From Peptococcaceae bacterium (GTDB taxonomy: Bacteria; Bacillota; Peptococcia; DRI-13; PHAD01), in contig JANLFJ010000035.1 in the NCBI GenBank assembly GCA_024655825.1, positions 1-32,710 of the forward strand: a stretch of DNA of 32,710 nt, in the 5' to 3' direction. How positions within the stretch are numbered: the stretch's first letter is position 1; each line of letters starts with the position of its first letter. Shown in pieces: positions 4,084 to 25,950 of the stretch. The notes beneath the pieces are model-generated. The model was not told the origin of the DNA. It ran no database searches and was given only the letters and a program-made list of their open reading frames with translations. The translations under genes were made by a program, and so were the position numbers.

Positions 4084-4428
4084 ATGAATGACCGATTGCT
4101 CAAAAGTCTTGGGGAAAAGCTTCAAGAAGCAAGAAAGAAAAGCGGTTTGACCCAGGACCAGGTTGCCAAAATCCTTGAAATAAACAAGGTACAGTTGTCA
4201 TATTACGAAACCGGAGCAAGAGAAATCAACATTACCCTCTTACAGGAATTGGCCAATTTATATGGCTATTCAGTCGGTTATTTTCTCGGTGATGAGAAAA
4301 AAAGCGAGCCCGAAGTAGAAATAGCCTTCAGAGCCGATGAGTTCTGCGAAGAAGATTGGGAAACCGTCGTTTTTGCCAAGACGTTTTTGCGCAATCTTTG
4401 TGAGATGAGGGCACTTCTGGGGAGATGA
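4084..4428 (+). CDS. XRE-family HTH repressor, partner of an ImmA peptidase
   Basis: This is a 114-residue regulator. The N-terminal Cro/C1-type helix-turn-helix runs from about residue 8 to 65 (ARKKSGLTQDQVAKILEI, then LSYYETGAREINITLLQEL, ending YFLGDEK). The C-terminal 45 residues are acidic and may contact the neighbouring peptidase. The ATG follows AAGGAGGGGG. The gene ends 4 nt before the ImmA/IrrE gene, the classic arrangement in which the peptidase cleaves or inactivates the repressor, as in ImmR/ImmA of ICEBs1. The palindromes upstream suggest autoregulation. It could equally act as the antitoxin of a three-gene XRE-ImmA-PIN unit, whose PIN gene is broken here. Confidence 0.88.
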   Translation: MNDRLLKSLGEKLQEARKKSGLTQDQVAKILEINKVQLSYYETGAREINITLLQELANLYGYSVGYFLGDEKKSEPEVEIAFRADEFCEEDWETVVFAKTFLRNLCEMRALLGR

Positions 4429-4432
4429 CGAG

Positions 4433-5203
4433 ATGAATTATGATGAAATAAAATTTAAGGCAGCGGAAACAAGAAAAAATCTTGGGATTGGACAATATGA
4501 CATGGTGGATATATTTAAGGTGCTGAAAGACATTGAAAATATTTCCCTGATAATAACTAAAATTAAGGGGAATATTTCTGGTTTTTTTATGCGTCATAAA
4601 GAAGCTGGACTTATTGTCATAAATGCCAGCAGGAGCCTGGGCCACCAGCATTTCACGGCTGCCCATGAGTTTTATCATATTAAGTACGATATTGGCATGT
4701 CGGGAAAAGTCTGTCCCATCAATAAATTTGAAGAAGAGTACCAAAACGAACGCGACGCCAACCATTTTGCGGCTCATCTCCTGGTTCCAGACAATGCCCT
4801 GGAGTATATGATACTGAAAAGGACTAAAGGACAGCAGATTACCCTAAACGATGTGATATTTTTAGAAAATTACTTCCAGGTAAGCCATAAACTGATGCTT
4901 CTCCGCCTGAAAAGTATCGGAGCGATCACAAGTAAACTATACGACTCCTTGGAAAAAAACATTATTAAAAATGCCGCTCAGCTTGGTTACAACACCGACC
5001 TGTATCGTAATACCGAAAATAAGGGAACACAAATCTATTCGGATTATGCAGAACTTGCCCAGACTCTTTTGGACAGCGGCAGGATAACTTACGGAAAATA
5101 CGAAGAACTGCTTTTGGATGGAGGCTATGCAGATATTTTGTATGGGGATAATGAAGAATCGGAAGGTGCGGAAAATGCATTTGAAGATGCCGATAGTTTT
5201 TGA
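4433..5203 (+). CDS. ImmA/IrrE-family zinc metallopeptidase
   Basis: This is a 256-residue protein with the zinc-peptidase motif HEFYH (His78, Glu79, His82) and a downstream glutamate ligand, probably Glu106, in ERDANHFAAHLLVP. This is the standard COG2856 pattern. Family members cleave or inactivate the cognate XRE repressor to switch on mobile-element or toxin genes. The C-terminal 100 residues form a helical region with an acidic tail. The gene follows the XRE repressor by 4 nt and overlaps the PIN-domain fragment by about 29 nt. The reading frame looks intact. Confidence 0.9.
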   Translation: MNYDEIKFKAAETRKNLGIGQYDMVDIFKVLKDIENISLIITKIKGNISGFFMRHKEAGLIVINASRSLGHQHFTAAHEFYHIKYDIGMSGKVCPINKFEEEYQNERDANHFAAHLLVPDNALEYMILKRTKGQQITLNDVIFLENYFQVSHKLMLLRLKSIGAITSKLYDSLEKNIIKNAAQLGYNTDLYRNTENKGTQIYSDYAELAQTLLDSGRITYGKYEELLLDGGYADILYGDNEESEGAENAFEDADSF

Positions 5204-5327
5204 TAACGACTGCATTGCTTCATTTTCCTGGATTAATCGATTAGACATAATTAATACCCTCTTCCCAGGACAAATCATTATCCCCGCAGCCGTTTACCCG
5301 GGTTCGACAGTTTTTCGTGACTTTTAG
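5175..5327 (+). pseudogene. Truncated PIN-domain toxin gene (5' fragment)
   Basis: About 50 codons remain. MPIVFDNDCIASFSW carries the first conserved PIN acidic residue, and a second strand reads IIIPAAVY. From about 5300 the frame runs into an unrelated tail (PGSTVFRDF) and stops. A full PIN domain is about 120-150 residues, so the other catalytic acids are missing. Third genes of this kind commonly follow XRE-ImmA pairs. The ATG at 5175 has GGAAGGTG upstream; the ATG at 5187 is an alternative. The fragment overlaps the end of the ImmA gene. Its break lies next to the broken end of the convergent DUF6079 gene. Confidence 0.7.
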
Positions 5328-5331
5328 GTAT

Positions 5332-7155
5332 TTATAATTTCTTGCTATCCTGCTGTGCCGCCAGGATTTCCATTTCCTTGGCGGCGGCAAACAGTTTAAG
5401 GTTTTCCTTTAAATCCCTCGTCGCCAATGAATTTGAAAAAGACCTCATCGTCCTTTTTGTCATCCTGAGCGGTAAGCTCGCCGTAGGGAGGAAGGAAATA
5501 GACATAGAAATCCCGCGGGGGCTGGGTGGTGGGTCTTTCGTTGGTCTCTCCCATAAAGAGGTAGCCGAAACGGCAGATATTCTTTTCCTCCCAGTTCAGA
5601 TAGTATTCATAGATTTTATAGCCGGTCCTGTACTCCGGCGCATCCCAGTCCAGCATCTCATAAATCACGGAATAATAGTAGGGATTAAGCTGGGAATCAT
5701 GTAGCGCTCCGGCCTTCTTTTCAATCTGAGCATCATAATCAATGTCTTTCTTGAGATCAAGGTAGTATTGCTCATTATCCTTGTTGTACTCGATGAATTG
5801 CCCGCTGACCGTGTCAATGATGGCTTTCATGACTGAGTTAACCGTGGACAAGAGAAAATCCTCGGTCAGGACAGGCATGTTGATGTAAAGAGACAAAGGT
5901 CGTCTTTTAGATTCTGGGCTGTCAGGCCGGCTTTAACGTCCAGTGTGCCCGTGGTAAGCCGGTGGACGCTGAGGGCATAAATGATCTGAATGGCCAGCGG
6001 CTTGTAAACCGGTTTTGTAAAGGAACGGTTGACAATATCCTCTAAAATGCCGCTCTTGTCCAACACCTCTTTTATTTCCTGTTCCGCTTTTTTGGCCACA
6101 TTTTCTTTAATGTATTTCCAGTAAGAATCATACGATTTAATCCCCGGCTCGTTTGCCGGGACATCATTATCTATAATCGCTTTGACCGTTGCCGAAATTG
6201 TCTTTAAGACCTCGCGCTTTTCCGCCAGGTATACTTTCTGGAAAATCTCTATGAAGGCAGGATGGATGGGGAAAAGCTCCACAAATTCCTCCAGCCGCTC
6301 CGACATGTTTTTATACAAGGGGCAAAACTTCTGCAAATGCTCCCTGATCCAGGTCTTCTGCTCAGGCGTCTTTTTCAGAATTCTCTCGGAGACAACATAG
6401 GCTATATCCTCGCGCCTGATGATGATTTGTTCAAAGCGGTCTTTTACTTTTAACAGCGTGGCTGTCACAAAGGTAAAATTAGGGCTGTCAAAAAGCGCCT
6501 CCTGAACCCCGCAAATCACCCTAAACCGCGAATTCTTGATGAATTCCCCAATTTCCCTAAGAAAACCAAGGTCCAGCATTAAATCCATTTGTGTCCGGCT
6601 CTTTAGATAATCGAGCAGTTCGTCGATTACTAAAAGATACCCCTTCTGACCATAAACCTCCTCGAATCTGGCCATCATTTCATTGAGGGCATCTTTGTTA
6701 CCGGTGATAGTATTGGCTGCCGGGAACTTGTAGACGATCCCTCTTTTGGCCAGGTCCTTTTCCAGTTCCGCTGTAACGATGTCCCGCAAGGGGGTTTTTA
6801 CGGCGCCGATTTCTATTCTCAGCACTTCAAACCTGCCCGCCAGTGGTTTTATGTATTCAGTAAACTTCTGATTGCGCAGAAAGGCTGCCTTGCTCTCATC
6901 CTGGGCTATACAGGAGATGACTGACATCAGGTGTGATTTTCCGGTCCCGTAATTACCGACAATAAATACGCCTTTATTGTCCACGACCTCATCAAGGCTT
7001 AGCTGGGAAAGCACTTTTTCTTTTAGGTTTAAAGCCATGTCATCAGACATGACATAAGTTTCAATTAACTTTTGTGCTTTTTTCGAATCATCTGCATCCT
7101 TCAGTTGAATAATCGTATCGATGGGATCAAAGTGAATCAGGCCACTGTATTTCAT
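5332..7155 (-). pseudogene. DUF6079-type (PglY/BrxC-like) ATPase, frameshifted and 3'-truncated
   Basis: From recall, DUF6079 proteins are large P-loop ATPases of roughly 1200 residues found with phage-resistance genes and resembling PglY and BrxC. The first 429 codons (7155-5866) hold the N-terminal domain, with Walker A GNYGTGKSH near residue 68 and a Walker B-like LLVIDELLDYL. The frame breaks near 5886-5890: DDLCL jumps to YINMPVLTEDF in another frame, which runs on to about 5425. There a second shift moves FFKFI into ATRDLKENLKLF, and translation stops at 5332. Roughly half the family length is therefore missing. The start has a GGGGGAGG site and lies 16 nt after the BrxF-like gene. The product is probably non-functional unless the shifts are sequencing errors; the 3' truncation would remain in any case. 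Confidence 0.72.
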
Positions 7156-7171
7156 ACGTCCTCCCCCTCTG

Positions 7172-7630
7172 CTACTTCGTTAAACAATAGACGTCATAAT
7201 TCTTTATGTCATAGAGATGATAATCCGGCAGCTCAGGAACAGAGGAGCTTAACAGGCCATCCCTGAAAGCCCCGTCCCACATGATGATCAACTTTTTGTT
7301 CCTGCCCAATTGAATGAACAATTTAAGCACATCAAGCTGGTAATAAGGCGCAAAGAGCAGATCGATATTATCAATAATAACCCTATCGCTTTCAGAAGCA
7401 GAAACCATTTCCTGGATAATGTCAACGATGTAATTGGGACGCTTTTCTTTCTTGTAGGACAGGACCTTTTGGGATATACAGAGACCCAAATTAAACCAAG
7501 GCCAGTCAGGAAATAATTGCTTTATCACTTCCCTGTTTGTGCAAGCGACGAATACTGGCTTCGGTCCTTTCCCCGTGCCGTATTCTGAAACAGCTTCCCT
7601 CAACAATATTTCTTTCCCCAAACCTATCAC
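7172..7630 (-). CDS. BrxF-like protein lacking a recognisable P-loop
   Basis: The 152 residues resemble BrxF, the small P-loop protein of type 3 BREX. Matches by eye are PWFNLGLCISQKVL, the Walker B-like VIIDNIDLLFAP, then LFIQLGRNKKLIIMWDG, and the end LPDYHLYDIKNYDVYCL. The N-terminus, where Walker A should lie, reads only VIGLGKEILLREAV: three spacer residues short and with Glu in place of Ser/Thr. The GTG at 7630 has only a weak upstream site. In the same frame, a TTG at 7735 has a perfect AGGAGG but meets stop codons. The gene is therefore probably N-terminally damaged. It is the fifth gene of the operon. The assignment rests on remembered family patterns. Confidence 0.55.
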   Translation of the reverse strand: MIGLGKEILLREAVSEYGTGKGPKPVFVACTNREVIKQLFPDWPWFNLGLCISQKVLSYKKEKRPNYIVDIIQEMVSASESDRVIIDNIDLLFAPYYQLDVLKLFIQLGRNKKLIIMWDGAFRDGLLSSSVPELPDYHLYDIKNYDVYCLTK

Positions 7631-7753
7631 GCACCTTTACTATTTACCCATCGCATGCCATCTATAGGTTATATTTTTTTACTTGTTTCCGATTTCCTGT
7701 CTCTTCCCCTGAACATATCCATTTTTCCCAAACAATCTCCTGCCTCCTATCTT

Positions 7754-10700
7754 TTACCCCTCAATCAATAATGCTTTTTTTAAAAATTCAATTACCATGC
7801 CCCTATTCAATTCGTCATGGCAAAACTGATTCCTGAAATGCCTGAGACAACCATAACAGCTTGTATTTCCTTCAGGCGCACCACATTCACATCGCTTTAA
7901 ACGCTCCAATGTTGCGTTCAGAACATCCATTAATATTTTATCATTGACCAGACGTCTTACGTGCCCGGCTCCGCCAGGGACATCATCGAATATCACAAGC
8001 ACAGGTTGATCCAGATTACCGACAGAATAGTATAAGCAACCGTCTAGGTCTTGCCTCTCAATTTGGAGAACTTCGCAAGTACCCTCAAGAATTCCATAAA
8101 GCATCGAGAGCCAAAAGCTTTTCCTGCTGTCAAAATATCCTTCGAAGGACATCATAAGGATGTCCGTTTCAAACTCATGCCCTAGAGCCAAGTGGTTGAT
8201 TAATGGGCCATTACATGCTGCCCCCCACGCGTTTTGGTGAGTGCTGGACGGTTTCTCGTCGCCCAGTACTGTGTATCCGCAACGGAAACATACTTTGAAA
8301 GCCTTTCCGCCGGCGTTATTGATTATCGCCAGCTTGCCCTTGGAAGCAGGGATGGCTATGAGTTTACCCCCATTCAATCCCAAGCTGACACTCTCCCCCT
8401 TATTGTCACAGCCGGAATAATATACCCTGGTAGTATACGTCCTTTCAGGCTTTTCTTCGCCTGGTTTGCCAGGCGCCTGTCTATCGGAGATAAAGCCAAA
8501 GGCAGGAATTATGAAGGTACCTTTATTTCTTATTATTTGACCACAGACAGGGCAAGTTTTTAGCGTTTCATTTTCGTTGCGTTTATCATCAAACTCCACT
8601 CGACTTCCCCGGTGATAGCTGTTGCAATTGTCACAAATGGCATACCTGTAACGCTCCCACTCTTTTTTGGGTAACCGTTTAAGATACCGGCTGGTCCATA
8701 ATTTTCCGCCAGCCACAACCTGGCTGCTTGGGGCATACTCGGATAATGCTATGCGTAAATCCCTTTCCAATCGCAGCTTCTTGACCTCTTCGCCGTGATG
8801 GGTGAGTTGCAGTTCGACCACATCTACGGGGAACCCATACTTTGGAATCACGTTCCTGGTCGATAAGTATTCAATCAGGTCTTTGTCTTTAATAGTGCTT
8901 ATTAGCCTTTTGATATGGTCAACATCGCGTCCTTCATAGAAAAGCTTTATTCGCAATTGCTCCAACTGTTCTATGTCGCCGGCTATTTCTTCCCAGGCTT
9001 TCTGTAAAACAGCCTCTCCTTCCTGGTAAAGGGTTCTTACCCACCCCCAGTTTTCCAGTTGTAGTTCATCGTGCAAATCTTGGGGAACAATCCTCTTTAA
9101 TGCTTCCTTCAAAGCCTGCGGCTTTTTATCAAGAAACTCAGCGAAGTACCGGGGACCGGACACTTCGTTTTGGAAAAAGAAATCATCCGCCTTGCCGAAA
9201 TAATCTGGTTTTTCCCTCCAGAAGTATGACAAGGCCACGGCATAAAGATGCCTTCTTACTATCTTAAGGTTTTCAATTTTAAAATAGGGCGGCTTAATAA
9301 TACCCGCAACCATGCGCCACGGTTCCTGGTAATGGGCCAAATCATGGGAGCGCCTTTGGGCAAAGGTCAAAACATAAGCAACGCTGTCAGTCCTTCGGCC
9401 GGCGCGACCGGCTCTTTGCACATAGTTCGCAGATGAAGGGGGCATATTGCGCATAAAGACCGTTTCTAGTTCGCCTACGTCTACTCCCAACTCAAACGTG
9501 GTTGAACAGCTGAGAATATTGACGCGGCCTTTGACAAAATCGTTTTGCAGTTCAGCCGCAGCCTCACCGCTTAACTGCGCTGTATGTTCTTCAGCTCTCA
9601 TTCGGATGGGAAGCAAATCTATGTACAATTTAAAATAGTGGTTCTCTTTGTTAAACACTAATGGGTTACATTTCCTTAACGTGCCTTCGCAGCGATAAGT
9701 AGGACAAATTCCCCGGATATTATGAAGGGTCAGATTTTTACACTTATCACATAGATACCACTCAACACTGCTGTCCAATTGTGTGGCCTTTAATTCCCAG
9801 ATAGTATTGTTTAGCCTAAATACAGTCCCCAATTGCGGAATACTATTAATGCTAAAATACTGATTCCAAATACTGCTTGGATCGTTAAACCAAAAACTCC
9901 TCCAGATATTGCTTAATAGCTCTAAGCACTTTTCTTTCGTAATATTAGGATTTATTTTTTGAGCCAGGCGTATCAGATAATCCGACCTGCTGTTGTTCGA
10001 ACTGGAGTTCCAGCCTATCACTCCTCTTTTCGTTAAGTCGCGATCAGTTCTATCTTTCACATAATACTCACGGTTCCGAGGCTGAAAGAATTCATCCTGG
10101 GGAGATACTTCCTCAGGAAAAACGAGAGCCCCTTTTTGACGAATGGTATCAAGCAATACCTGATACAAGGTCCAGACTTCCTCTGGGGTAAAGCACCACG
10201 GATCCTTTAAAAGAGGCGGAGGAGGCGCCCATTTTGTGGATTTTACCAGAGAAAAGCCCAAGAGGCCCAAACCTTCCAAACTATTGCGCTTATCTAATGC
10301 CAACAGCTCATACATCAACCACTTCCATATTTCTGTTTTTTGTCCTGTTTTGCTGTAATCGGGAAATATCTCCATTTTCTCCATATACTTTTGCAGCGGG
10401 TTAACAATATCTTGTACCCTCCATTTGTCGTTAAGTACAGCTTCTTTATTTATCTCTAAAATTTTTAAAATTAAGCCCCTTCTAAGGATACGATCATAAG
10501 TGCGGTTTAAATAAGGTGCAAAAAAAGCCGCATCTTGCCTGCTATCGGAAAACGCCAACAACTTTCTTTGGCCGCTATGCATGAAGTCTTTATCAGTATC
10601 ATCAACATTGATTTGATATGATCTCCAGGAATCATCTTCGGCGGGAGGATTTGCTTCCTTAGCCGCTTGCCTCGGCTCGACTTCTCGATATAAAGCGGTG

Positions 10701-12640
10701 GCCAGCACACTGGTTGCCGCATCTGCGCCCGTCAGAAAACGCCATACCACTCCTTGCGGGCTCCTCTTGCCGCAGGCAGGGCAGGCATATACTTTCCCGT
10801 CTTTCACAGGCATTTTGAGCAAACTAAAGTGTTTCCTTTCTTGACAGCAGTTGCCGGCAATGGCATTGTCCTTGTCTATTGAACCGCAACTGCCACAGAG
10901 GGTGTATCTTTCGAACTTCCCGGCTGCTTCTCCAATATTGTCAGGGAAACCGACGATTTCATCCTCATCCTCTTCCACCGGCTCTATTCCCAAATTCAGC
11001 AAAAGATAGTGTTCCAAACGGGTTGACCCTACCCCCTGTTTCAGGCAATGCCTATTATTCTCTCCCTCTGCTGTGATGCCTGATAAATAAACGGCTCCAC
11101 ACTGGCGGCAGCCGGATATTTCAAAGACCGGGTACTCTCTCTCCTTCACCTTGACTGTCTCATGCCTGTCCAAAAACAACTGGAGTCCGGGGGTTAGGCT
11201 GAGGTATGCTCCCTCAATGGCCCTCACAAAGACATGATATCTGGCCGGCAGCAAGGGCTGGCTCTGAGATTCGCTTTTGGCTTTATTTGCCAAGTCAACC
11301 AAAGCTATCAGCGATACCGCCGGATCGGGTACGCCCTGGATTATTTCTTTGGCCAGGTCTAATAAAAGGACAGGACCACCTTTTTGTAAAGCATTTTGCA
11401 AACTTAATAACCTCTGTTCTCCCTTCAGTATTTCGTAAAGGAACGCCGGCCAGCCTTCAGTGCTCCCTCTGCGACAGGCTTCATCAAGCAATTGTCGGGG
11501 GACTTTGCCATCCAAGATTGATACCAATTTATCAATTTTATCCTCCTTATCCACCTTCTGTTCATCCACGATGTTCCTGCATCGGATATACTCCTCAGGG
11601 TCCAACGCTCCCCAGCTGTCTGCGGTTTGCGCCAAAGGAAGGCGAGCAGCACCTATGATGTCCTGTTTATCGGGATTATTGCTTTCGAATTCAAAATCCT
11701 CGCCAAAGAGTTGCCGGGCAAAGGCAGCCACTGCCGGGAAGTCTTTTTCTCCGCCGCCTAAGGTGGCACTGGTGGCAATACATCTTAACCGACCAGGCCG
11801 GCTCATGTTCACCCGGTCTTTTAAGCGTCGCAACAGCATGGCAGTTTCTATTCCTTTGGCTCCCATATACGTGTGGGCTTCATCGAGAACCAAAAAACGC
11901 CAATGCTTGGCATAATCGCCATCAAAAAACACGCTGTCGTCCGGTCTTAAGAGCAGGTACTCCAGCATAGCATAGTTTGTCAACAGGATGTGAGGAGGTG
12001 ATTGCCACATCTGCGTCCTGGATATTAATTCATTATCCAAGGGTTTACTGCCAAACATTTTTACGTGTTTGTCTAAAGCCGCAGCATCCTCCCGTTCAGT
12101 CTCACCCGTATAGCGGCCAAAAGTAATGTCTTTGTAGTTAGCCAAAATTTCGCGCAGGCGCGCCAGTTGGTCATTGGCCAAGGCATTCATGGGATAAAGA
12201 AGAAGCGCTCTCACTCCTGGCCCTAAACGACCCGCTTCTTTCTCTTTGAATAAATGATCAAGTATGGGAAGCAGGAAAGCCTCGGTTTTACCGCTGCCCG
12301 TGCCGGTGGCAAGAACAATATTGCGGTTTTTTTCAATTATTTTGCGCAAAGCCAATTCCTGGTGTAGGTACAGGTTACGGTCAAGCTTAAAAGAAGAAGA
12401 CTGCAACTTTATAAACTCCCTGGATAAGAGTCCCTCCTTGATCAGTTCGTTTATTGTTGCCCCTTTTTGAAAAGAAGGTGTCGCCTCCAGGATGGGGCCC
12501 TTAATAAATTTACCCGGTACTTTAAGAAGATTTACAAACTGTTCATGCAAATTGTGGTCATGTAGAGGAAACGAGGTGGATAAATAGCTGAGATAACTAT
12601 CCTCGACAGCTTTTGTCACTTTAATAGGATCAAAGCTCAT
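7754..12640 (-). CDS. Large DEAH-box helicase with DUF1998-type C-terminus (DruE/DrmB-like)
   Basis: This is a 1628-residue superfamily 2 helicase. Walker A GTGSGKT is at 113-119, followed by LLYPMNALANDQLARL, DEAH at 253-256 and SAT at 291-293. The second RecA domain includes TFELGVDVGELE and the arginine-finger motif YVQRAGRAGR around residues 1040-1070. The long middle and C-terminus carry many paired cysteines (CRQCG, CGSCG, CPACG, CDKC, CDNC, CPVCG, CFRCG), suggesting several zinc ribbons. The end, from DDVPGGAGHVRRL to CYGCLRHFRNQFCHD, is the DUF1998 signature. Helicases of this layout occur in Druantia (DruE) and, as two proteins, in DISARM. The start overlaps the giant upstream gene by 11 nt, which implies coupled translation. 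No frameshift is seen. Confidence 0.85.
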   Translation of the reverse strand: MSFDPIKVTKAVEDSYLSYLSTSFPLHDHNLHEQFVNLLKVPGKFIKGPILEATPSFQKGATINELIKEGLLSREFIKLQSSSFKLDRNLYLHQELALRKIIEKNRNIVLATGTGSGKTEAFLLPILDHLFKEKEAGRLGPGVRALLLYPMNALANDQLARLREILANYKDITFGRYTGETEREDAAALDKHVKMFGSKPLDNELISRTQMWQSPPHILLTNYAMLEYLLLRPDDSVFFDGDYAKHWRFLVLDEAHTYMGAKGIETAMLLRRLKDRVNMSRPGRLRCIATSATLGGGEKDFPAVAAFARQLFGEDFEFESNNPDKQDIIGAARLPLAQTADSWGALDPEEYIRCRNIVDEQKVDKEDKIDKLVSILDGKVPRQLLDEACRRGSTEGWPAFLYEILKGEQRLLSLQNALQKGGPVLLLDLAKEIIQGVPDPAVSLIALVDLANKAKSESQSQPLLPARYHVFVRAIEGAYLSLTPGLQLFLDRHETVKVKEREYPVFEISGCRQCGAVYLSGITAEGENNRHCLKQGVGSTRLEHYLLLNLGIEPVEEDEDEIVGFPDNIGEAAGKFERYTLCGSCGSIDKDNAIAGNCCQERKHFSLLKMPVKDGKVYACPACGKRSPQGVVWRFLTGADAATSVLATALYREVEPRQAAKEANPPAEDDSWRSYQINVDDTDKDFMHSGQRKLLAFSDSRQDAAFFAPYLNRTYDRILRRGLILKILEINKEAVLNDKWRVQDIVNPLQKYMEKMEIFPDYSKTGQKTEIWKWLMYELLALDKRNSLEGLGLLGFSLVKSTKWAPPPPLLKDPWCFTPEEVWTLYQVLLDTIRQKGALVFPEEVSPQDEFFQPRNREYYVKDRTDRDLTKRGVIGWNSSSNNSRSDYLIRLAQKINPNITKEKCLELLSNIWRSFWFNDPSSIWNQYFSINSIPQLGTVFRLNNTIWELKATQLDSSVEWYLCDKCKNLTLHNIRGICPTYRCEGTLRKCNPLVFNKENHYFKLYIDLLPIRMRAEEHTAQLSGEAAAELQNDFVKGRVNILSCSTTFELGVDVGELETVFMRNMPPSSANYVQRAGRAGRRTDSVAYVLTFAQRRSHDLAHYQEPWRMVAGIIKPPYFKIENLKIVRRHLYAVALSYFWREKPDYFGKADDFFFQNEVSGPRYFAEFLDKKPQALKEALKRIVPQDLHDELQLENWGWVRTLYQEGEAVLQKAWEEIAGDIEQLEQLRIKLFYEGRDVDHIKRLISTIKDKDLIEYLSTRNVIPKYGFPVDVVELQLTHHGEEVKKLRLERDLRIALSEYAPSSQVVAGGKLWTSRYLKRLPKKEWERYRYAICDNCNSYHRGSRVEFDDKRNENETLKTCPVCGQIIRNKGTFIIPAFGFISDRQAPGKPGEEKPERTYTTRVYYSGCDNKGESVSLGLNGGKLIAIPASKGKLAIINNAGGKAFKVCFRCGYTVLGDEKPSSTHQNAWGAACNGPLINHLALGHEFETDILMMSFEGYFDSRKSFWLSMLYGILEGTCEVLQIERQDLDGCLYYSVGNLDQPVLVIFDDVPGGAGHVRRLVNDKILMDVLNATLERLKRCECGAPEGNTSCYGCLRHFRNQFCHDELNRGMVIEFLKKALLIEG

Positions 12641-15600
12641 TTTTAAGCACCCCTATAAATTTATTGCATAGTTCCGCTTCTTCTTTCAAAAATATTTGGG
12701 TTAACTCATCAGCTTTTAGGCTCTGGATTGGATTTAAGCCAAACTCTATTGGGAAGGGTTCGGTTTTTGATGAAAACAGAACAAGAAGATCGTCCTTAGC
12801 CATCGGGTATTTATTAAAGATTTTGGCATATATGTCCCTAAAATTAAGACAATATAAGAATTTAGCCTTAATGGTATCAAACTGATGTTCCAGGCCTTTG
12901 CATTTCATAAAGGGGTTATGGGCATACCAGTCCGCATCGTTTTGAAAGATCCTCCCACATGTACTGCATACTACAATCCCGGTAGGTATATCAAAATAAA
13001 CCTGCTGTTCATCTTCTTTCCAGCGCAGCTTAGAATTCTTAAATGGAAAATTCAAATCTAACGAAAAGTCTCGTTTTTCTAATAACCTTGTCAGCACCCG
13101 CCCGGCTAATCCTTCCAAATTGATTGTTTTACTGGAGCCTTTATGACGGTACACCAGCTTTAAACCAATGTCATTTAATCCCTGTATTTGCTTGATAAAC
13201 TCCGTGCATTCTCCGTTTGGGCATTCCAAGGATGCGCCTTCCGTAAGGGCCATAACTCTATAGTAAGAAGGTCCATCCAGGACATCTATTGCCAACCAAT
13301 GGGCTGCCTGACCTAAATTATTGTCTTGCAGGGTTAAGCTGAATTTGCCGCCTGCGCAATAAATCTTCTCTTTAACGACTTTAGGGTTCCCTTCGTGAAT
13401 GCCCAATAGCGAAACCTCTGCCCTGATCAGGGGAGGTGCGTTGATAAATTCACCGGTTATAACAGCTTGGCTGCCAGTGACTAATTGAACTCTGCAGCTT
13501 CTCAGATATATTCCCTCGTAGTTTATATCGATTAAAAAGGTGTCTTTATCCTGGTTTGGAAACTCAACATCTCGTGGGCTCCATGGATCATCAATATCAA
13601 AGTGCAATAAATATTTGCCTTCTGATAAATGTTCTTCGATATGATCTATCACAATACTGCAGCGGCCATTCGGAATTTCCTGCACATATGGTTCCACCCA
13701 AGGTTCCTCCAGGCGCCAAAACCTTATAACCCTCTGCTCCGCCTTTCCTTTTTCTTTCCAAAACAGCTCCAAGGAATACCCATGTTTTTTGTTTTTGATG
13801 AAATATTCAAAACCATATACTTCCCACTTGCTGCGAACCCTCAACACCGGTCCTGCCCTGATTTTCCGCCGATCCTCTAATAGGTTGATGCTGAACACCT
13901 GAACCGGAAAACTGCTCTGCCTTATGGAATCAGTAAACGAAGTCAACTTAAACTGTGCCCTCCCTCCATATAAAGGCAAGGTCAATTCTTGTGCATAATC
14001 ATTCATGTACAGTTGAAGACCCCTTTTCCCCCGGCTGGAACAGAGCACCTCAAGAACCCAACCGTCCGCTTTCTGCCATTCGCCAAACCAGATTTCCTCT
14101 AAGCTGTCTGACCATTCGAAGGATCCCTTCTCTTGGTCACCGGCCAAGCGCCATTTCAGCTTAGGAATATTAACAGTCAGTTGAAAGATTGCTGTTTCTC
14201 CGCCAGATCTAGCAGTTTTAAGGTCACAGCCGAAACTGTCTGCTGAGAAATCTACAACAACATCACAGGTATCAGCTTCTTCACGTATTTTTTGGGCAGG
14301 CTGATGAACAAAAAACTCTGCCGATGGTGGTTTTGCAATACTGAGCTTAACCTCTTTCCTTGTTCCCTTCTCTTGTGGAGGGTAGATTTCCTGCTCAAAA
14401 TCGACCCGGAAACCAGGTAGATAGGCCAGCCGGTAGATTTTAAACTCCTGCCCGAGGTAGTTAAAGACAATGTCATATAACCCGGCATCCAGAGAACCGA
14501 AGAGGGATTGGTCATGTAAATCAAGCCAGGCGTTTCGGCCGTCTTTATCTATCTTTACTGCTTTAATGTCGGCTATCCTGGACCGGACAATCTTATCTCC
14601 TTTTTCATTCTCCATCATAAATATCCAATAAGATAAATCATCCTTTTCATGAAGCGGTATTTTTATTAGCGGTAATTTCTCTGAGTATACCAAAACGCCA
14701 TCCATCGAAACGTTGGAAATTTCTTCTCCGCCCTCTAACTCAGGTATAACAGTGCTCCAATCCTGGATAGGTATCTTGTATGCAATCCCTTTAATGTCAG
14801 TAAAATGTAAGCCTGTTGTATTAGAAAGGTCTAACAGCACCATGCGGAAAGACTTGTCAAGAAAGCCTATTTGCCCTTCTTCTATTATCCTTAGAGAAGG
14901 AGCGATAACAATTCCTTCATTAAGAATAAACCAGTACCGGTTTTTCCTTAATCTCTTGATATCCTGTTTTTTGCCATCTTCACTGAAAACAAGGAAATAA
15001 TCTTTCGAACCCAGACCATTAATGGTCCATGAGCGCAGGAGAGCATCACCTGAGTAAATCTCCACCTGATACTCATCTTTTAGCAAATCCAAATTGATCG
15101 CAGCCGGCAGGGTTTCCACAATACCGTCCTTACTCAAATAAGCTCTAAGGTCTGTTTTGGCCAAAACAGTTGTACCTTCCGTTGCAGTAACCACTAAAGA
15201 CAACGATTGGTAAGAGCTTCCCTTTTGATCATGATAAAGGAAGCGCATTTTTCCTGCCGCCAGCTTAATTCTTTTATACACTGGATCAAGAACAATTGTC
15301 GGAGCCACTGACCTTTCACCCTTGGGTTCTCCTTTCTCCGGCTTCTGTTCATCCCTTTTCGGCCACCATTGTTCAAACCAGCTAATCACTCTCTCAGGGA
15401 GCTGTACTGCCCTGGCCTTGTTGAATTGCCCGTCTGATGCCAATTTCACGAGTTTAACACTCTGGGCAAGAAAGTCCTCAGCCCAGTCCCCCCCGTAGAG
15501 AAGAAACCGTCTTATTGGTTCGTCGACATAAGGATACACCGTCGGGTAAGATGATAATTCTTTTTGTTTAAAATCAAGTGCGTCCTTTAGCTGTGTTAGC

Positions 15601-17360
15601 TGGGTGGATATTTCCCGTTTATGCTGGGCCAAAACGTCATTTCCAGAGCCAGGACTAATCTGAAACAACCTCTCTAATTGCCTTATTTTTCCGATAATCT
15701 TTTTATTGGTCTGTCGTAAGCTTTTAAGTTCTTGGATGGCTGATACGCCTGCCTCCAGGTCGCCATTGCCGAATCCACGGATTATCCGTTCCTTTTCTTG
15801 TAGTTCCCTTTCAATGCTTTGCTTTTTCCTGGTTAGCTCTTTTAGGGCAGGAATAACGGTCTTGTTCAGCTTAACCTTGGCCAGATAAGCATTTTTTCTC
15901 CTGTTTTGGGCTTCAGAAGCCTCGAGTGTTTTGCGTCGAAGCTGTTCCGCTTTATCCGGCTCGTTTTCAAAAGCGGCTGCCAATTCACAAATCCCGGCAT
16001 TTTGTCCCATGATTTTATTATGTGCATGTAATTCCCTTAAACCTTTGTTAAAGCAATCAGTAAGGCTTGCTACTGTTTTGACTAAAGAGCTAAACTCCTC
16101 ATGACTTTGCAAAAACAACTCCTTTTTTAAAGGGCTGTCGTATATCTCCCTCAGTGTCTCCTCTATACCTTTACGCAGTTCCAAAACCCTGTCGCTGTCA
16201 TTTTTTCCTAAAGGGATGCTCCTCCTGGAACCAAACAAACCCATAATAAAGAAGGCCAATCTCTTTATCCACCCGTTGCCTTTAGCTCTTTCTTTTTGTT
16301 CTTTCTCAGTGCTCTCTTTTAGTTGGTAATACGCCTCGATTAGCAAAAGCAATTTATCGGAGCGAAAAACAATTTCAGACTCTAATCTGGGATTTATTTG
16401 AAAAATTTTAACCAATTCCAATGATAACTGTTGTTTGGCTGTATTCAGATTCTCTAACAGTGCCTTTCTGTTTTTCTCTTGTTCTTCAAGCTGCTGTAAT
16501 CTTTCAATTTCTGCGTTTAGGTTGGGTAAAGAATCAAGCAAGGCTTGTTCTCGGGGACCAAACAGATTAATAATAGCTTCCAAGACAGTCCTTTGCTTGT
16601 CCCACTCATCCATTTCTTCCTTGAGTTGCAATAATTCCCTCTGCTTTATAGTCCGGTAACCCTCAAAGTCTTCTGGTAGACCGGACAGATTGCCGTAACT
16701 GCGGAGCTTATTCTCATAATCATTATATTGTTGATGCAATTCGATTAAAGTAGTAAGTTGTCTCTTTTTGTCATCATAATCATGGAACTTTATCATCATT
16801 TCATTTATCTCGTTATGGATTATCATTCTCTTTCTTTGCAATTGTCTAATCTTCGCCAGAAAGGACTTAAGCTCATGGCTTGATGCAATTCCCATTTTTA
16901 GTAATGGCACGACTATTTCCTCAAAGAAATCAGGCAAACAACTCTGAGGAATACCCGCATGTAAGAGGATAGGACCAACAAAACGATGGGCGCCTTCGAT
17001 CTCAGCATGATTTAAGTCATTTGAATTTATATAATCAAGAAAAAAACTCCCCAGTTTGTTCTGTAAAGTCGCATTGCTAATATCTGGGAAGGCTTCGTCA
17101 AGCGACCAGTATTGCCCTTGTTTGTAATTCCAGACGGCTTCATTAACCAATAAAAAAGCCAGACATGACGGGGCAAAGTTCAAAACAAGCTCTAGTCCCT
17201 TGTCTACATCCCGCCTAATCCGGCTATAAATAAAATCTCGCAATTTATTGGCATCCATTTCCGTCAGTTCTAGCTGTCCAATAAAGGAAACACTATTGTT
17301 AACCCTCTGTTTGTTTAAAAAATCTTCGCACTCAGAAATGTTAGTAATGCTCTCCAACAT
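12630..17360 (-). CDS. Giant uncharacterised defence-associated protein (coiled coil plus Cys/His cluster)
   Basis: I do not recognise this 1576-residue protein. Residues about 1-160 are helical. Residues about 165-640 are rich in Glu, Lys, Gln and Leu with heptad-like spacing, which suggests a long coiled coil; a hydrophobic, basic break near 370 reads KRLAFFIMGLFGSRR. Residues about 690-1440 have a beta-rich, repetitive-looking composition with many aromatic and charged alternations. Near 1460-1490 a C-x2-C cluster (CSTCGRIF, then H, C and H residues) may bind zinc. The ATG at 17360 has a GAGGTG site 6 nt upstream; a GTG three codons earlier is less likely. The gene follows the WYL gene by 36 nt and overlaps the helicase. 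It might play the part of DruH in type III Druantia, but that is only inference from position. Confidence 0.8.
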   Translation of the reverse strand: MLESITNISECEDFLNKQRVNNSVSFIGQLELTEMDANKLRDFIYSRIRRDVDKGLELVLNFAPSCLAFLLVNEAVWNYKQGQYWSLDEAFPDISNATLQNKLGSFFLDYINSNDLNHAEIEGAHRFVGPILLHAGIPQSCLPDFFEEIVVPLLKMGIASSHELKSFLAKIRQLQRKRMIIHNEINEMMIKFHDYDDKKRQLTTLIELHQQYNDYENKLRSYGNLSGLPEDFEGYRTIKQRELLQLKEEMDEWDKQRTVLEAIINLFGPREQALLDSLPNLNAEIERLQQLEEQEKNRKALLENLNTAKQQLSLELVKIFQINPRLESEIVFRSDKLLLLIEAYYQLKESTEKEQKERAKGNGWIKRLAFFIMGLFGSRRSIPLGKNDSDRVLELRKGIEETLREIYDSPLKKELFLQSHEEFSSLVKTVASLTDCFNKGLRELHAHNKIMGQNAGICELAAAFENEPDKAEQLRRKTLEASEAQNRRKNAYLAKVKLNKTVIPALKELTRKKQSIERELQEKERIIRGFGNGDLEAGVSAIQELKSLRQTNKKIIGKIRQLERLFQISPGSGNDVLAQHKREISTQLTQLKDALDFKQKELSSYPTVYPYVDEPIRRFLLYGGDWAEDFLAQSVKLVKLASDGQFNKARAVQLPERVISWFEQWWPKRDEQKPEKGEPKGERSVAPTIVLDPVYKRIKLAAGKMRFLYHDQKGSSYQSLSLVVTATEGTTVLAKTDLRAYLSKDGIVETLPAAINLDLLKDEYQVEIYSGDALLRSWTINGLGSKDYFLVFSEDGKKQDIKRLRKNRYWFILNEGIVIAPSLRIIEEGQIGFLDKSFRMVLLDLSNTTGLHFTDIKGIAYKIPIQDWSTVIPELEGGEEISNVSMDGVLVYSEKLPLIKIPLHEKDDLSYWIFMMENEKGDKIVRSRIADIKAVKIDKDGRNAWLDLHDQSLFGSLDAGLYDIVFNYLGQEFKIYRLAYLPGFRVDFEQEIYPPQEKGTRKEVKLSIAKPPSAEFFVHQPAQKIREEADTCDVVVDFSADSFGCDLKTARSGGETAIFQLTVNIPKLKWRLAGDQEKGSFEWSDSLEEIWFGEWQKADGWVLEVLCSSRGKRGLQLYMNDYAQELTLPLYGGRAQFKLTSFTDSIRQSSFPVQVFSINLLEDRRKIRAGPVLRVRSKWEVYGFEYFIKNKKHGYSLELFWKEKGKAEQRVIRFWRLEEPWVEPYVQEIPNGRCSIVIDHIEEHLSEGKYLLHFDIDDPWSPRDVEFPNQDKDTFLIDINYEGIYLRSCRVQLVTGSQAVITGEFINAPPLIRAEVSLLGIHEGNPKVVKEKIYCAGGKFSLTLQDNNLGQAAHWLAIDVLDGPSYYRVMALTEGASLECPNGECTEFIKQIQGLNDIGLKLVYRHKGSSKTINLEGLAGRVLTRLLEKRDFSLDLNFPFKNSKLRWKEDEQQVYFDIPTGIVVCSTCGRIFQNDADWYAHNPFMKCKGLEHQFDTIKAKFLYCLNFRDIYAKIFNKYPMAKDDLLVLFSSKTEPFPIEFGLNPIQSLKADELTQIFLKEEAELCNKFIGVLKNEL

Positions 17361-17396
17361 ACACAACACCTCTTTTTGCTAAAAAAAGAAGCCAAG

Positions 17397-18641
17397 TTAT
17401 AAAACTGAGTTGTCTGCATACATCGCTTCTATTTGCGATGCGATCTTCCGCATTTTCTCCTGCAGCGCCGGGGGTTCAAGCAGTTTAGCCCCTGTCTTCC
17501 ACTGCAAAAGCCAACTGATGAATTCAATAATTCCTTTTATTTTAAAGCTGACTACGATTGAACCGTCTTCCCTTTCCTCTTCTATCATTTGGCTGGGATG
17601 ATATTTGATTTTTTTCACCCTGTAGGCAACAGAAGGGGCGAATTGCACTTTGATATGAGTTGCTTCCTTTTCCTCAAATACTCCCCACCTGTCTTTGACA
17701 TATTCTCCAAGTTGGAAATCGGCCGGATAAAGGAATTTCTGATGCTGTCTTGGCGAGATGTATTCAATCTGATCAATGCGAAACGTCCGCAGGTCATTCT
17801 TCTCCAAGCACTTCCCTATCAAATACCAATTATGATGCTTGCATACCAACCCGTACGGTTCGACTAACCTTTTTGATATCTCCTGGTTGTAAGATAGAAA
17901 GTATTCTATATAGATGACATACGACTGATTAAGAGCATGCAATATCTCTAAGAAAGTTTTACTTACTCTTTCTGTATCGATAAGAGCTTCATCCACAATG
18001 TAGACTCTTGATTCCAACTCCTTTAAAGCAATCGCCTGGAGAGAATACCTGTTTCTGGTAAGGGTGCCTATCAAGGCTTCCTTTATTTCTTGAGTCCCCA
18101 AAGTAAGGGCCGTTTCTTTTTGCTGCAACAGGCTCAGGTAAATAAACATAGCCTTCTCGGGGCTTATCGCAGGAAGATAGGTGTTATCTAATTTGTACCT
18201 GCCCTTTTCCCCCATATTTCTATCCGGTCGAACTATTCTAATGTTGAGTTCCTGCTCCAGATCACACAGGTCTCTGTATACCGTCCGTTCGGTAACATCC
18301 AGCTTTTCCGCCAATTCCCCCAGGGTGGCTCCTCCAAAAGGGGTCCTCTGGTTTAAAACGTTGATGAGTTTAGCCAGCCGGGTAGATTTATTCATAACTT
18401 TGCTGACACTCATCTTGTTTTTCCTGTTGTATTCTTTAATGGCTTCGATATTAAGAGCCTGGCCGTTGTGTTTAACCATGCCAACATCTATTGCAGCGGC
18501 TGCCGATTCAAGATAGGTAAAAAGGGTCTTTTCGTTTATGCCCAACAAACTGCAAAGTTGTTCGGTTTCTACCTCGTTGCCTTCTTTAACAGAATCAACA
18601 ATCCCCTGGTAAATACGCATCTCCCGTTTCAGTCTGCTCAA
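17397..18641 (-). CDS. WYL-domain transcriptional regulator
   Basis: This is a roughly 414-residue regulator. After an N-terminal helical segment that could be a second HTH, a DeoR-type winged helix is clear (GATLGELAEKLDVTERTVYR). It is followed by a WYL domain (VEPYGLVCKHHNWYLIGKC and LRTFRIDQIEYI) and a WCX-like C-terminus ending near SQIEAMYA. WYL regulators such as BrxR and CapW repress phage-defence operons and are thought to respond to nucleic-acid or nucleotide ligands. I placed the start at the TTG at 18641, preceded by AGGTGAG; a TTG at 18692 and an ATG at 18620 are alternatives. It is the second gene of the operon, and the TGACA-N6-TGTCA pair before the first gene is its probable target. 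Confidence 0.88.
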   Translation of the reverse strand: MSRLKREMRIYQGIVDSVKEGNEVETEQLCSLLGINEKTLFTYLESAAAAIDVGMVKHNGQALNIEAIKEYNRKNKMSVSKVMNKSTRLAKLINVLNQRTPFGGATLGELAEKLDVTERTVYRDLCDLEQELNIRIVRPDRNMGEKGRYKLDNTYLPAISPEKAMFIYLSLLQQKETALTLGTQEIKEALIGTLTRNRYSLQAIALKELESRVYIVDEALIDTERVSKTFLEILHALNQSYVIYIEYFLSYNQEISKRLVEPYGLVCKHHNWYLIGKCLEKNDLRTFRIDQIEYISPRQHQKFLYPADFQLGEYVKDRWGVFEEKEATHIKVQFAPSVAYRVKKIKYHPSQMIEEEREDGSIVVSFKIKGIIEFISWLLQWKTGAKLLEPPALQEKMRKIASQIEAMYADNSVL

Positions 18642-18801
18642 GTTCTCACCTGCCCCGGAAATGCATTTTTCGTCCTCCTGATGGTGCCGCAAGCGGCATG
18701 GCCGTCATCTCAACATGAAAACTGGAAGACTCCGCTGCCTTTCTTAAGCGGTTCCTTTCAAATCGGTTATATACACGTTGCATAATTAACCGCCTCAACA
18801 C

Positions 18802-20055
18802 TCAACGCTTATTCCTGGACCTGTAGCTGGAAAACTTCATTTCTTTTCTTAATAGAGGGCTAAATTCTCTGCTCTCGCTTACCTTATAATAGTTCGATTC
18901 AAGACTTCTAATTTCCTCCAATATTTCGTTGTCTTGACATTTCAAAAACAAATCGTCTAATTTTTCTTTTTGTGCTTTAAGCATCTGACATGCAGCATCA
19001 AAAAGTCCCTCATCAGCCTTTTTGATGGCTTCTTCCCTGATTTGAGCGGTTCGATATATCTCAATCTCTTTTATTACCTTAAAGTCCACCACCGCATCCT
19101 GTAAATCCCCGTATTTTTCGGTCACAGGCACATTAATGGCCAAATCGAGCTTAACTGATACCAGGTTGTCCTGAACGTCGTCATACCTTAAACTAATCTG
19201 CCCCAGGTCCAATCCTCCGCTATCTCCAGTTTGCACCGTAAGTTCAATAAGGACAGTTTTAATGTCGCCGCTATACATATCGGGGAGTTTAATCCGGATA
19301 TCATGACCAAACTCCGGTTTATAACCAATAATCCCTATGGCTTTCACGCTTTCTGAAGGGGTAATGGTCAGTTCAAGGTTCTGGGCTGCAACGCTTAACA
19401 ATCCTTGCAGTTCCTGGCGGAAGATTTCCGGCAACATGTCAGGACTGGAAATATAATAGAAGTTGCCTCCTCCAGCCTCAGCCATGTCTACCAGTAAGTC
19501 TTCCTGAAAATCCTGGCCAACCCCCAGTGTTGATATGGTTATGCCCTTACCGTTTAACCTTTTGACATGGGAAACCAATTTTTGGGGTTCGGTAATACCG
19601 CGATTGGCTAAACCATCCGTTAATAGCACTACCCGGTTTACCTGATCCCCTAACAAATTTTCTCTCACCAGCCCAGCGCCCTTGAAAAGGCCGCCGCTTA
19701 GATTAGTACAGCCGCCAGATCCAATACTTTGAATTGCTTGTATCATCTGGTCTTTGTTGATGGCCTTTTGAGCCGGTATCAATACATTTACCTCATCGTC
19801 AAATGCAACTACAGACACAGTATCGTGCGTATCCAGATGCTCCAAGGCAAATTTAACAGCCCGCTTGGTGTAGTCAAGCTTCTCTCCTGCCATTGAACCG
19901 GACCTGTCCAGAACAAAGCTTACATTGACCGGCAACCTCCCCTTAATCTGAACTGGCGGTTGCCTCAGTTGTAACATTACGTAAATCTGCTGCAGCGAAT
20001 TAACCCCAAGACACCGATGGCTAAGAGAAAGGTTTAAATCCAACTTTTCAGTCAT
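18802..20055 (-). CDS. VWA-domain protein, first gene of the defence-like operon
   Basis: This is a 417-residue cytoplasmic protein with a von Willebrand factor A domain. The metal-ion-dependent adhesion site is complete: DRSGSM at 50-55, a threonine in GGCTNLSGG, and an aspartate in LLTDGLANRG. After the VWA fold come a beta-rich region and a charged helical C-terminus with many Lys and Glu residues. There is no signal peptide or membrane helix, so an intracellular scaffolding role for partner proteins is more likely than adhesion. The ATG at 20055 follows GGGGGTGG at good spacing. An upstream in-frame extension crosses the promoter elements and is unlikely. The gene leads the operon and lies about 160 nt before the WYL regulator start. 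Confidence 0.85.
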   Translation of the reverse strand: MTEKLDLNLSLSHRCLGVNSLQQIYVMLQLRQPPVQIKGRLPVNVSFVLDRSGSMAGEKLDYTKRAVKFALEHLDTHDTVSVVAFDDEVNVLIPAQKAINKDQMIQAIQSIGSGGCTNLSGGLFKGAGLVRENLLGDQVNRVVLLTDGLANRGITEPQKLVSHVKRLNGKGITISTLGVGQDFQEDLLVDMAEAGGGNFYYISSPDMLPEIFRQELQGLLSVAAQNLELTITPSESVKAIGIIGYKPEFGHDIRIKLPDMYSGDIKTVLIELTVQTGDSGGLDLGQISLRYDDVQDNLVSVKLDLAINVPVTEKYGDLQDAVVDFKVIKEIEIYRTAQIREEAIKKADEGLFDAACQMLKAQKEKLDDLFLKCQDNEILEEIRSLESNYYKVSESREFSPLLRKEMKFSSYRSRNKR

Positions 20056-20102
20056 AAAAAACCACCCCCATATGTGCTTTAGTTCTAGTATGCCGGAGGT
20101 GG

Positions 20103-20120
20103 CTGACAATAGACTGTCAG
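20103..20120. promoter_or_regulatory. Palindromic operator 1, TGACA-N6-TGTCA
   Basis: CTGACA and TGTCAG face each other across ATAGAC. The site lies over the expected transcription start of the minus-strand operon, just downstream of its -10. Together with the second copy it is the likely binding site of the WYL regulator encoded by the second gene. Confidence 0.65.
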
Positions 20121-20124
20121 TATG

Positions 20125-20152
20125 ATTATCGCAAATGACAACACTTTGTCAG
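20125..20152 (-). promoter_or_regulatory. Candidate promoter of the defence-like operon
   Basis: Read on the minus strand, CTGACA (20152-20147) is followed after 16 nt by GATAAT (20130-20125). The first element lies within operator 2 and the start site within operator 1, so a bound repressor would block the promoter on both sides. The match to the vegetative consensus is fair, not perfect. Confidence 0.5.
20136..20151. promoter_or_regulatory. Palindromic operator 2, TGACA-N6-TGTCA
   Basis: TGACA and TGTCA face each other across ACACTT. The half-sites and 6-nt gap are identical to those of operator 1, and the centres are 32 nt apart, about three turns of the helix, so two dimers could bind the same face. 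The site overlaps the candidate -35. Confidence 0.65.
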
Positions 20153-20163
20153 CAACTATAAAC

Positions 20164-20220
20164 AAAAAAGGGATAAGTGGCGTAAGTCCTGTATTTACAA
20201 GACTTTGCCCTTATCCCTTT
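20164..20220 (-). terminator. Intrinsic terminator downstream of glmS
   Basis: Read on the minus strand, an 11-bp stem (AAAGGGATAAG with CTTATCCCTTT), extended by a second imperfect stem inside, is followed by TTTTTT. It lies about 125 nt beyond the glmS stop and also marks the right edge of the accessory region. Read on the plus strand it has no T run. Confidence 0.75.
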
Positions 20221-20243
20221 GCTGTTCTTTATGGACTTGAACC

Positions 20244-20308
20244 TTTATCCTTTTCCCTTTTTTCCTCCCAATCGGAATCCCTTTTTTCGCATGGGGAAAA
20301 GGAATAAA
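20244..20308. repeat. Second imperfect hairpin in the glmS 3' region
   Basis: TTTATCCTTTTCCC pairs with GGGAAAAGGAATAAA apart from a one-base bulge, around a long purine/pyrimidine-skewed loop that repeats the motif AAAAAAGGGA. It may be part of the glmS 3' untranslated region or low-complexity sequence. Confidence 0.4.
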
Positions 20309-20344
20309 TGAGAAATATAACCTCTCCCGGCAACGGTGAACGTT

Positions 20345-25917: not shown

Positions 25918-25950
25918 ATAAATCCCTCCTTTTCGTTTTCTTCGTTTTCG

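Follow-up and report, generated by a model that had tools for sequence, protein, structure and literature searches.

The window, that is, the whole 32,710-nt stretch of DNA analysed here, contains a block of six genes, all on the minus strand. In transcription order, they code for a VWA-domain protein, a WYL regulator, a giant protein, a helicase, BrxF, and DUF6079. The successive intergenic distances are 109, 27, −11, 123, and 16 nt, and the negative value denotes an 11-nt overlap of the giant protein and helicase genes. The gene order, the shared strand, the short gaps, and the overlap reported in the first-pass annotation were all confirmed by the coordinates. Its family names (WYL/WCX, VWA, DEAD with MZB(DUF1998), BrxF, and DUF6079) agreed with the profile matches. 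The GC content of the block is 41–46% versus 53–54% in both flanks. On one side lies glmS, the 3′ side of which is variable in relatives. A comparison of the glmS side with the far end for Tn7-like terminal repeats found no shared 16-nt stretch, even when up to two mismatches were allowed.

The last two genes of the block are parts of BREX type 3. BrxF (7172..7630, minus strand), a P-loop/iSTAND protein with an intact open frame, obtained 72 bits in PADLOC and 72.1 bits against NCBIfam NF033453, the cut-off of which is 50. The adjoining BrxC/DUF6079 gene (5314..7155, minus strand) is split into pieces in three frames (5866-7155, 5396-5896, and ~5314-5390). In a tblastn comparison with the intact BrxC of locus L152, they showed 80% and 77% identity, and the Pfam DUF6079 model was covered at positions 1-425 and 435-586 of 1238. 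Since the gene carries two frameshifts, and the similarity stops at residue 624 of 1239 so that the C-terminal half is missing, BrxC is a decayed pseudogene. The DUF6079 ATPase of the first-pass annotation was therefore placed in the right family (669 bits), but it is not one gene. The order BrxF-BrxC is the usual one in BREX type 3. Each of the 30 Bacillota DUF6079 loci that were read resembles an ordinary BREX-3 head of this kind, with PglXI next in most of them. In contrast to BREX type 3, the window lacks PglXI, BrxHII, and PglZ, and there is no BrxA among its genes. As had been noted earlier, no match to DrmC or a methylase was obtained either with the eight window proteins searched. PglXI was not found anywhere in the genome, and a PglZ-BrxA tail, in which PglZ is partial, lies on another of its contigs (C71). 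Judged by its sequence, BrxF-BrxC forms a BREX type 3 operon head that is broken and non-functional here.

At the opposite end of the block, the VWA-domain protein (18802..20109, minus strand; start probably the ATG at 20055; Pfam VWA 77.9 bits) is followed by an HTH-WYL-WCX transcription regulator (17397..18692, minus strand; Pfam WYL, WCX, and HTH_11). The four best relatives of the regulator (298–317 bits) are all VWA-linked. Two perfect inverted repeats, TGACA-N6-TGTCA, are present at 20104-20119 and 20136-20151 (no strand assigned) as predicted operators; these are the only two matches in the window versus 0.02 expected in shuffles. A promoter scan revealed a promoter-like CTGACA-N16-GATAAT at 20152-20125 on the minus strand, with the repeats placed around it. 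A one-mismatch copy of the repeat was found 90 nt upstream of VWA in locus L236. The repeats are probably operators of the WYL regulator, which would exert the control. According to the first-pass annotation, all six genes formed one composite system. The same strand, the short gaps, and the single promoter-like site with operators before VWA are consistent with one working six-gene operon, in which VWA and WYL would be active parts. So is the L085 locus of Desulfoscipio, where a split VWA, WYL, and an HD protein are divergent from a DruE pair. We consider this reading most improbable: VWA-WYL pairs occur without DruE (L236, L237, L242, and L238), VWA is missing from all DruE loci read except the window and L085, and BrxC is broken. 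Conserved co-occurrence of all six genes was found in none of the other loci among the ~116 examined. VWA-WYL stands on its own as a pair, found repeatedly with no defence helicase, and the six genes fall into three separate modules, not one system. What stands of the earlier claim is the presence of a Druantia-III-like pair and of BREX-3 parts, as well as the remark that VWA is standard in neither Druantia III nor BREX-3.

The helicase (7754..12640, minus strand; 1628 aa; Pfam DEAD, Helicase_C, and MZB) matched the PADLOC models DruE1 and DruE3 with 637 and 541 bits, respectively. Its motifs GTGSGKT, DEAH, SATLG, TTFELGVDVG, and QRAGRAGRR are unbroken and invariant in the alignment. The MZB domain occupies residues 1517-1599, the protein ends straight after it, and a C-terminal nuclease domain is absent. 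By these profile and motif matches, the enzyme is a YprA-family SF2 helicase, DruE-like, with an MZB/DUF1998 end. The YprA/MrfA-type domain set, and the presence of YprA (6znp) among the solved-structure matches, would also suit a DNA-repair (MrfA-like) helicase unit with no role in defence. Such a function is very unlikely. The DruE models gave 398–637 bits versus at most ~108 for NCBIfam helicase models, a 2108-aa DEAD/DEAH helicase is the top-scoring relative of solved structure (252 bits versus 64 for YprA), and the distribution is patchy, with an island context. ARMADA and DISARM resemble the locus in that a YprA-family helicase is joined to BREX-like genes (PglX-like, BrxHII-like). DISARM was rejected, as DrmA gave at most 64 bits versus 637 for DruE and none of the eight window proteins searched matched DrmB, DrmC, or a methylase. 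ARMADA was rejected because the window has no BrxHII-like or PglX-like gene.

The gene of the giant protein (12630..17369, minus strand) codes for 1579 aa from a GTG or 1576 aa from the next ATG. The protein consists of an N-terminal domain, a coiled-coil-like region (~180-600), an Ig/Fn3-like beta-sandwich array (~690-1380), and a C-terminal Cys-rich, zinc-like motif with conserved cysteines, C1468 and C1471. The AlphaFold2 model of residues 601-1579 (pLDDT 82.6) shows a predicted beta-sandwich array. Fold searches with this model matched Ig/Fn3 chains of a generic kind. The fold matches listed (library up to 8 April 2026) included no DruH chain, an absence that is uninformative on DruH homology. 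The protein gave no match in Pfam, PADLOC, or NCBIfam, nor in plasmid and phage records by tblastn. Its profile found weak, mostly coiled-coil, matches among PDB sequences, and searches of its own-lineage class and family returned one distant match (G003). The giant-protein alignment contained no stretch conserved enough for the scan of genome contigs, so the helicase alignment was used instead. The PADLOC DruH3 models (2023) did not match the window protein, L089, L128, L110, or others, and E. coli L218 scored 1830 bits. In an hhalign comparison with E. coli DruH, the match was weak (E 0.0021, probability 13%) and confined to the N-terminal 120 residues. The shorter relative L110 is predicted to have a helical N-terminus, a beta core, and a helical C-terminus, and the layout reported for DruH comprises the same three parts together with an Ig-like sensor (PMC13192584). 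On sequence grounds, the giant protein appears DruH-like in position and architecture, while homology to DruH is unproven, because PADLOC gave no DruH match and profile comparison brought out only a weak resemblance to E. coli DruH.

The giant-DruE pair was found in ~100 loci of bacteria and archaea. In nearly all of them, a relative of the giant protein lies directly upstream of DruE, mostly overlapping it or within 50 nt. An iterative profile built from the window protein captured 98 of the 109 DruE upstream neighbours, actinobacterial ones included, and the Bacillota version matched the alignment of the shorter versions with a profile-profile E of 3.5e-84. In viral contigs, only one distant DruE relative was detected. 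The L217 plasmid DruE match, first read as Druantia III, was dropped as a source of DruH because a methylase-like gene lies upstream of it. The description of the giant protein and helicase as a Druantia-III-like pair was upheld by the DruE match and by the partner directly upstream, with the qualification that this partner has no PADLOC DruH match. Druantia III of E. coli (DruH, PDB 9tud) shares the arrangement of the pair, the helicase core, and the Ig-like sensor layout (PMC13192584). E. coli DruE, however, has about 2110 aa (2114) with C-terminal PLD-like nuclease domains, which are absent from the window DruE, and E. coli DruH (1096–1119 aa) shows only the weak N-terminal profile match to the giant protein. 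A nuclease-less branch of Druantia III is known as 'III-B' (PMC12458937). A mycobacterial DruH (1132 aa) with a nuclease-less DruE (1667 aa), encoded by overlapping genes, gives phage protection (PMC13316683). The window pair shares with III-B and the M. smegmatis DruH-DruE the two genes, the large overlapping partner upstream, and the DruE-like YprA helicase of 1600–1670 aa with a DUF1998 end and no nuclease; short partners are likewise helical-beta-helical. It differs in the 1579-aa partner with a long coiled-coil-like insert and the zinc-like motif, in the missing PADLOC DruH match, and in its BREX-3 linkage here and in eight loci. Our helicase tree included actinobacterial pairs of similar size and no named III-B sequence. 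In these sequence features, the nuclease-less Druantia III branch is the known system closest to the window pair.

The pair lies inside BREX-3 operons in eight loci of Chloroflexota and Bacillota, and the helicase tree indicates that these hybrid loci arose several times. Four Anaerolineae-type loci (L105, L112, L204, and L235) share one order, NERDhelicase-BrxC-PglXI-giant-DruE-BrxA, with no BrxF, BrxHII, or PglZ in the neighbourhood. The others read BrxF-BrxC-giant-DruE-NERDhelicase-PglXI-AbiEi-AbiEii-PglZ-BrxA (L089), BrxF-BrxC-giant-DruE (L082), PglXI-giant-DruE (L065), and, at two contig ends of G312, BrxF-BrxC-PglXI-245aa-giant and giant-DruE-BrxHII-PglZ-BrxA. The hybrids differ from BREX type 3 in carrying the pair, and they retain PglXI and BrxA, and also PglZ in L089 and G312. 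Genomes with both the pair and BREX-3 numbered 8 versus 2.8 expected in Bacillota (p 0.004; own genome excluded) and 3 versus 0.55 in Chloroflexota (p 0.014; starting genome excluded). In a 2026 survey of BREX, 77% of type 3 loci had BrxHII, and neither Druantia nor DUF1998 was mentioned (PMC12839542). A Druantia-like pair within BREX-3 operons appears to be new, as no description was found in the literature searched. The Druantia/BREX composite proposed for the window is real in these eight loci; the gene order there differs from that of the window.

For the window itself, it has nearly an even chance that the pair and the BREX-3 fragment are plain neighbours with no functional link. Among the 26 Bacillota giant-protein genomes, the pair and DUF6079 lie close on one contig in our window only, the BREX part is dead, and L035 and L041 also have the pair beside BREX-3 fragments, as island turnover predicts. 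The eight same-strand BREX-3 sets containing the pair, four of them in identical order, speak against it. They would instead suit a decayed true hybrid, in which ancestral BrxF, BrxC, PglXI, and others worked with giant and DruE and the BREX half was recently lost. The excess of genomes with both systems points the same way, and so does the 80% identity of BrxC to an intact one, which suggests that its decay is recent. This origin is possible but rather doubtful: none of the other loci read has the window order, with the pair upstream of BrxF; the closest BrxF-BrxC (L152) is followed by PglXI as is usual for BREX-3, and its contig ends too early to reveal a pair; the PglZ-BrxA tail of the same genome lies on another contig; and defence genes cluster in any case. 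The pair may formerly have acted jointly with what is now the BREX remnant. We tentatively propose, at somewhat less than an even chance, that giant-DruE is a recurrent working part of BREX-3, with PglXI methylation marking self and the window as a decayed relative. The pair would replace the BREX helicase and the PglZ effector in the Anaerolineae-type operon, since this operon has neither BrxHII nor PglZ, and the operon would then be a new hybrid system.

The 4.0-20.1 kb region is, in our judgement, quite likely an acquired defence island downstream of glmS, composed of VWA-WYL, the intact Druantia-III-like pair, and the broken BREX-3 head. It would have been acquired horizontally. VWA-WYL would form an independent, regulated pair with two predicted operators on its promoter. 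In the window, only the Druantia-like pair looks functional, and it would most likely work like Druantia III. By analogy with DruH, which recognises a phage tail or baseplate protein, the giant protein may sense infection through its Ig/Fn3-like array and then switch on the ATP-driven helicase. The helicase would act on phage DNA intermediates, so that circularisation or replication is blocked. As it has no nuclease domain, any cutting would fall to the partner or to host nucleases.

The partner that accompanies nuclease-less DruE helicases, bacterial and archaeal alike, can now be assigned a sequence family; such loci have been unnamed or half-named because PADLOC-DB 2023 misses the partner family. 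BREX type 3 operons have taken up a Druantia-type pair on more than one occasion, and the compact Anaerolineae operon lets one ask if another effector module can replace PglZ and BrxHII in BREX. At the broken BrxC end of the window, an HTH_3 regulator and an ImmA/IrrE-type peptidase form a further pair (4084..5203, plus strand; Pfam HTH_3 and Peptidase_M78). It lies on the opposite strand and is a neighbour outside the systems.

The six genes of the first-pass annotation were recovered at the positions assigned to them, all on the minus strand, and five of the six were named by Pfam, PADLOC and NCBIfam. They encode a VWA protein (18802-20109), a WYL regulator (17397-18692), a giant protein of 1579 residues (12630-17369), a helicase (7754-12640), BrxF (7172-7630) and a DUF6079/BrxC protein (5314-7155). 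The giant protein had no match in Pfam, PADLOC or NCBIfam at E 0.001. The helicase is a YprA protein of the DruE type, scoring 637 bits with the PADLOC model DruE1, 541 bits with DruE3 and 64 bits with DrmA; it has no nuclease domain. BrxF scored over the curated NCBIfam cut-off. The annotation had read these genes as one composite operon, part Druantia III-like and part BREX-3-like. As a six-gene system this was not upheld in the window, which consists of three modules: an intact Druantia III-like module, a dead BREX-3 head and an independent regulatory pair. The combination of Druantia with BREX-3 is nevertheless real in other genomes.

The pair of giant protein and DruE was followed by a scan with the helicase alignment, using one genome per species (84,980 species), in which 80 loci were kept. 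Where the flank was long enough, nearly every locus has a large gene immediately upstream of DruE; the two genes usually overlap or are at most 50 nt apart. An iterative profile seeded by the window giant protein alone recruited 98 of 109 such neighbours; most of those left outside were fragments of split DruE genes or controls from E. coli and cyanobacteria. The lineages carrying the pair include Bacillota, Chloroflexota, Actinomycetota, Planctomycetota and archaea, and a phylum-wide search found the giant protein in 26 of 398 genomes. Members of the family are about 800-1930 residues long, and two alignments of its distant parts matched over 660 columns (E 3.5e-84). Between the N-terminal domain and the beta-rich core, particular lineages carry an inserted coiled-coil-like stretch. 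An E. coli plasmid locus (p4M18F, L217), in which the gene for a 2113-residue YprA-type helicase is preceded by a methylase-like gene and followed by another helicase gene, resembles ARMADA type II.

Residues 601-1579 of the giant protein were modelled with AlphaFold2 from 30 sequences as a chain of beta-sandwich domains (mean pLDDT 82.6). Foldseek and VIA-align matched this model to Ig/Fn3 chains, an arrangement so common that the matches identify the class of fold rather than a relationship. In the model of a short relative (L110, pLDDT 78.0), a beta core is flanked by helical N- and C-termini. This predicted layout is that reported for DruH, a proposed protein-recognising sensor with helical ends and Ig-like domains (PMC13192584). 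The PADLOC DruH models did not match the giant protein, a profile comparison of the two was weak and confined to the N-terminus, and sequence homology to DruH is unproven. In M. smegmatis, the activator of DruH-DruE is a minor tail protein, and the outcome is a block to circularisation (PMC13316683); in E. coli, a baseplate protein associates weakly with DruH, and DruE engages ssDNA-containing intermediates (PMC13192584). By analogy, the giant protein would most likely sense a phage component and then activate the helicase on phage DNA. As the DruE of the window lacks a nuclease domain, cutting would need its partner, the giant protein, or host enzymes.

The DUF6079 gene is disrupted. In tblastn, the intact BrxC of a different Bacillota genome (L152) aligned to it in two frames (80% and 77% identity), with a short piece in a third, and similarity stops at residue 624 of 1239. 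Probes for PglXI, PglZ and BrxHII were all without match in the window. All 30 Bacillota DUF6079 loci look like BREX-3 heads of the order BrxF-BrxC, with PglXI next in most. A second BREX-3-type fragment of the same assembly, on a contig of 5090 bp (C71), carries a partial PglZ (C-terminal half of the model only) followed by BrxA. Because DUF6079 exceeds the family cut-off only in the window, the PglZ-BrxA fragment lies on C71 and the assembly has no PglXI, the BREX part is not a working system in this genome.

Elsewhere, the pair was found within BREX-3 operons (L089, L082, L105, L112, L204, L235, L065 and G312), and in L035 and L041 it adjoins BREX-3 fragments. In a Chloroflexota locus (L089, 2147-23819), BrxF, BrxC, the giant protein, DruE, a NERD helicase, PglXI, AbiEi, AbiEii, PglZ and BrxA are encoded on one strand. 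Four Anaerolineae-type genomes (L105/L167/L171, L112/L168, L204/L271 and L235) share a six-gene operon of NERD-UvrD helicase, BrxC, PglXI, giant protein, DruE and BrxA. No BrxF, BrxHII or PglZ was found in the neighbourhoods of these four operons, and here the pair stands in place of BrxHII and PglZ. In genome G312, two contig ends each cut the giant gene, one with BrxF-BrxC-PglXI-245-residue protein-giant protein and the other with giant protein-DruE-BrxHII-PglZ-BrxA; we infer that they join at this gene. As G312 retains BrxHII, the pair is not simply its substitute. On a FastTree helicase tree, some branches of which are unsure, 9 changes are required to explain the 11 BREX-linked rows and 6 to explain the 8 operonic ones, so the link was gained, or lost, several times. 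Among 400 Chloroflexota genomes, DruE occurred in 21, DUF6079 in 12 and both in 4, in 3 of these within 7 kb. With the starting genome removed, 3 Chloroflexota genomes had both against 0.55 expected (p 0.014). The corresponding Bacillota figures, minus the genome studied here, were 8 against 2.8 (p 0.004). The counts of both phyla would also be raised by defence-rich genomes. The sections of PMC12458937 considered here describe a nuclease-less Druantia III-like branch, name III-A and III-B representatives, and contain no BREX-3 linkage of Druantia. A BREX survey (PMC12839542) mentions neither Druantia, YprA nor DUF1998, and none of the open-licence papers searched brings Druantia, BrxC and PglX together. 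The combination is apparently new to the literature.

Of 9 loci with Bacillota relatives of the VWA protein, 4 have an adjoining WYL gene, in the same order in L236, L237 and L242 and reversed in L238, and these four stretches have no DruE gene. All four of the best relatives of the window WYL protein are VWA-linked, with scores of 298-317 bits; the WYL genes of other DruE loci reached at most 80 bits against it. Two perfect TGACA-N6-TGTCA repeats at 20104-20151 overlap a promoter-like sequence in front of VWA, and the motif is absent from the rest of the window (0.02 expected). Copies with one and two mismatches lie at -90 and -134 from the VWA genes of L236 and L237, respectively. The repeats are putative operators to which the WYL protein would bind, and the VWA promoter may also drive the downstream genes. 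In Desulfoscipio (L085, 2306-5170), a DruE pair is divergent from genes for a WYL protein and an OB-HD protein and from a VWA gene that is split.

The block at about 4.0-20.1 kb has a GC content of 41-46%, against 53-54% in both flanks. At 20109-22294, this island begins immediately downstream of glmS, a classic Tn7 attachment site. No Tn7-like terminal repeats turned up in a 16-nt search. The upstream neighbours of glmS (a GGDEF protein and PurD) are mostly kept in relatives of the same taxonomic order, whereas the downstream side varies. In the flank at 24259-30487, a lactate permease, a LarA-like protein, a GlcD-like oxidase and EtfAB, all named by eye, are encoded in a row, which is likely a lactate-use cluster.
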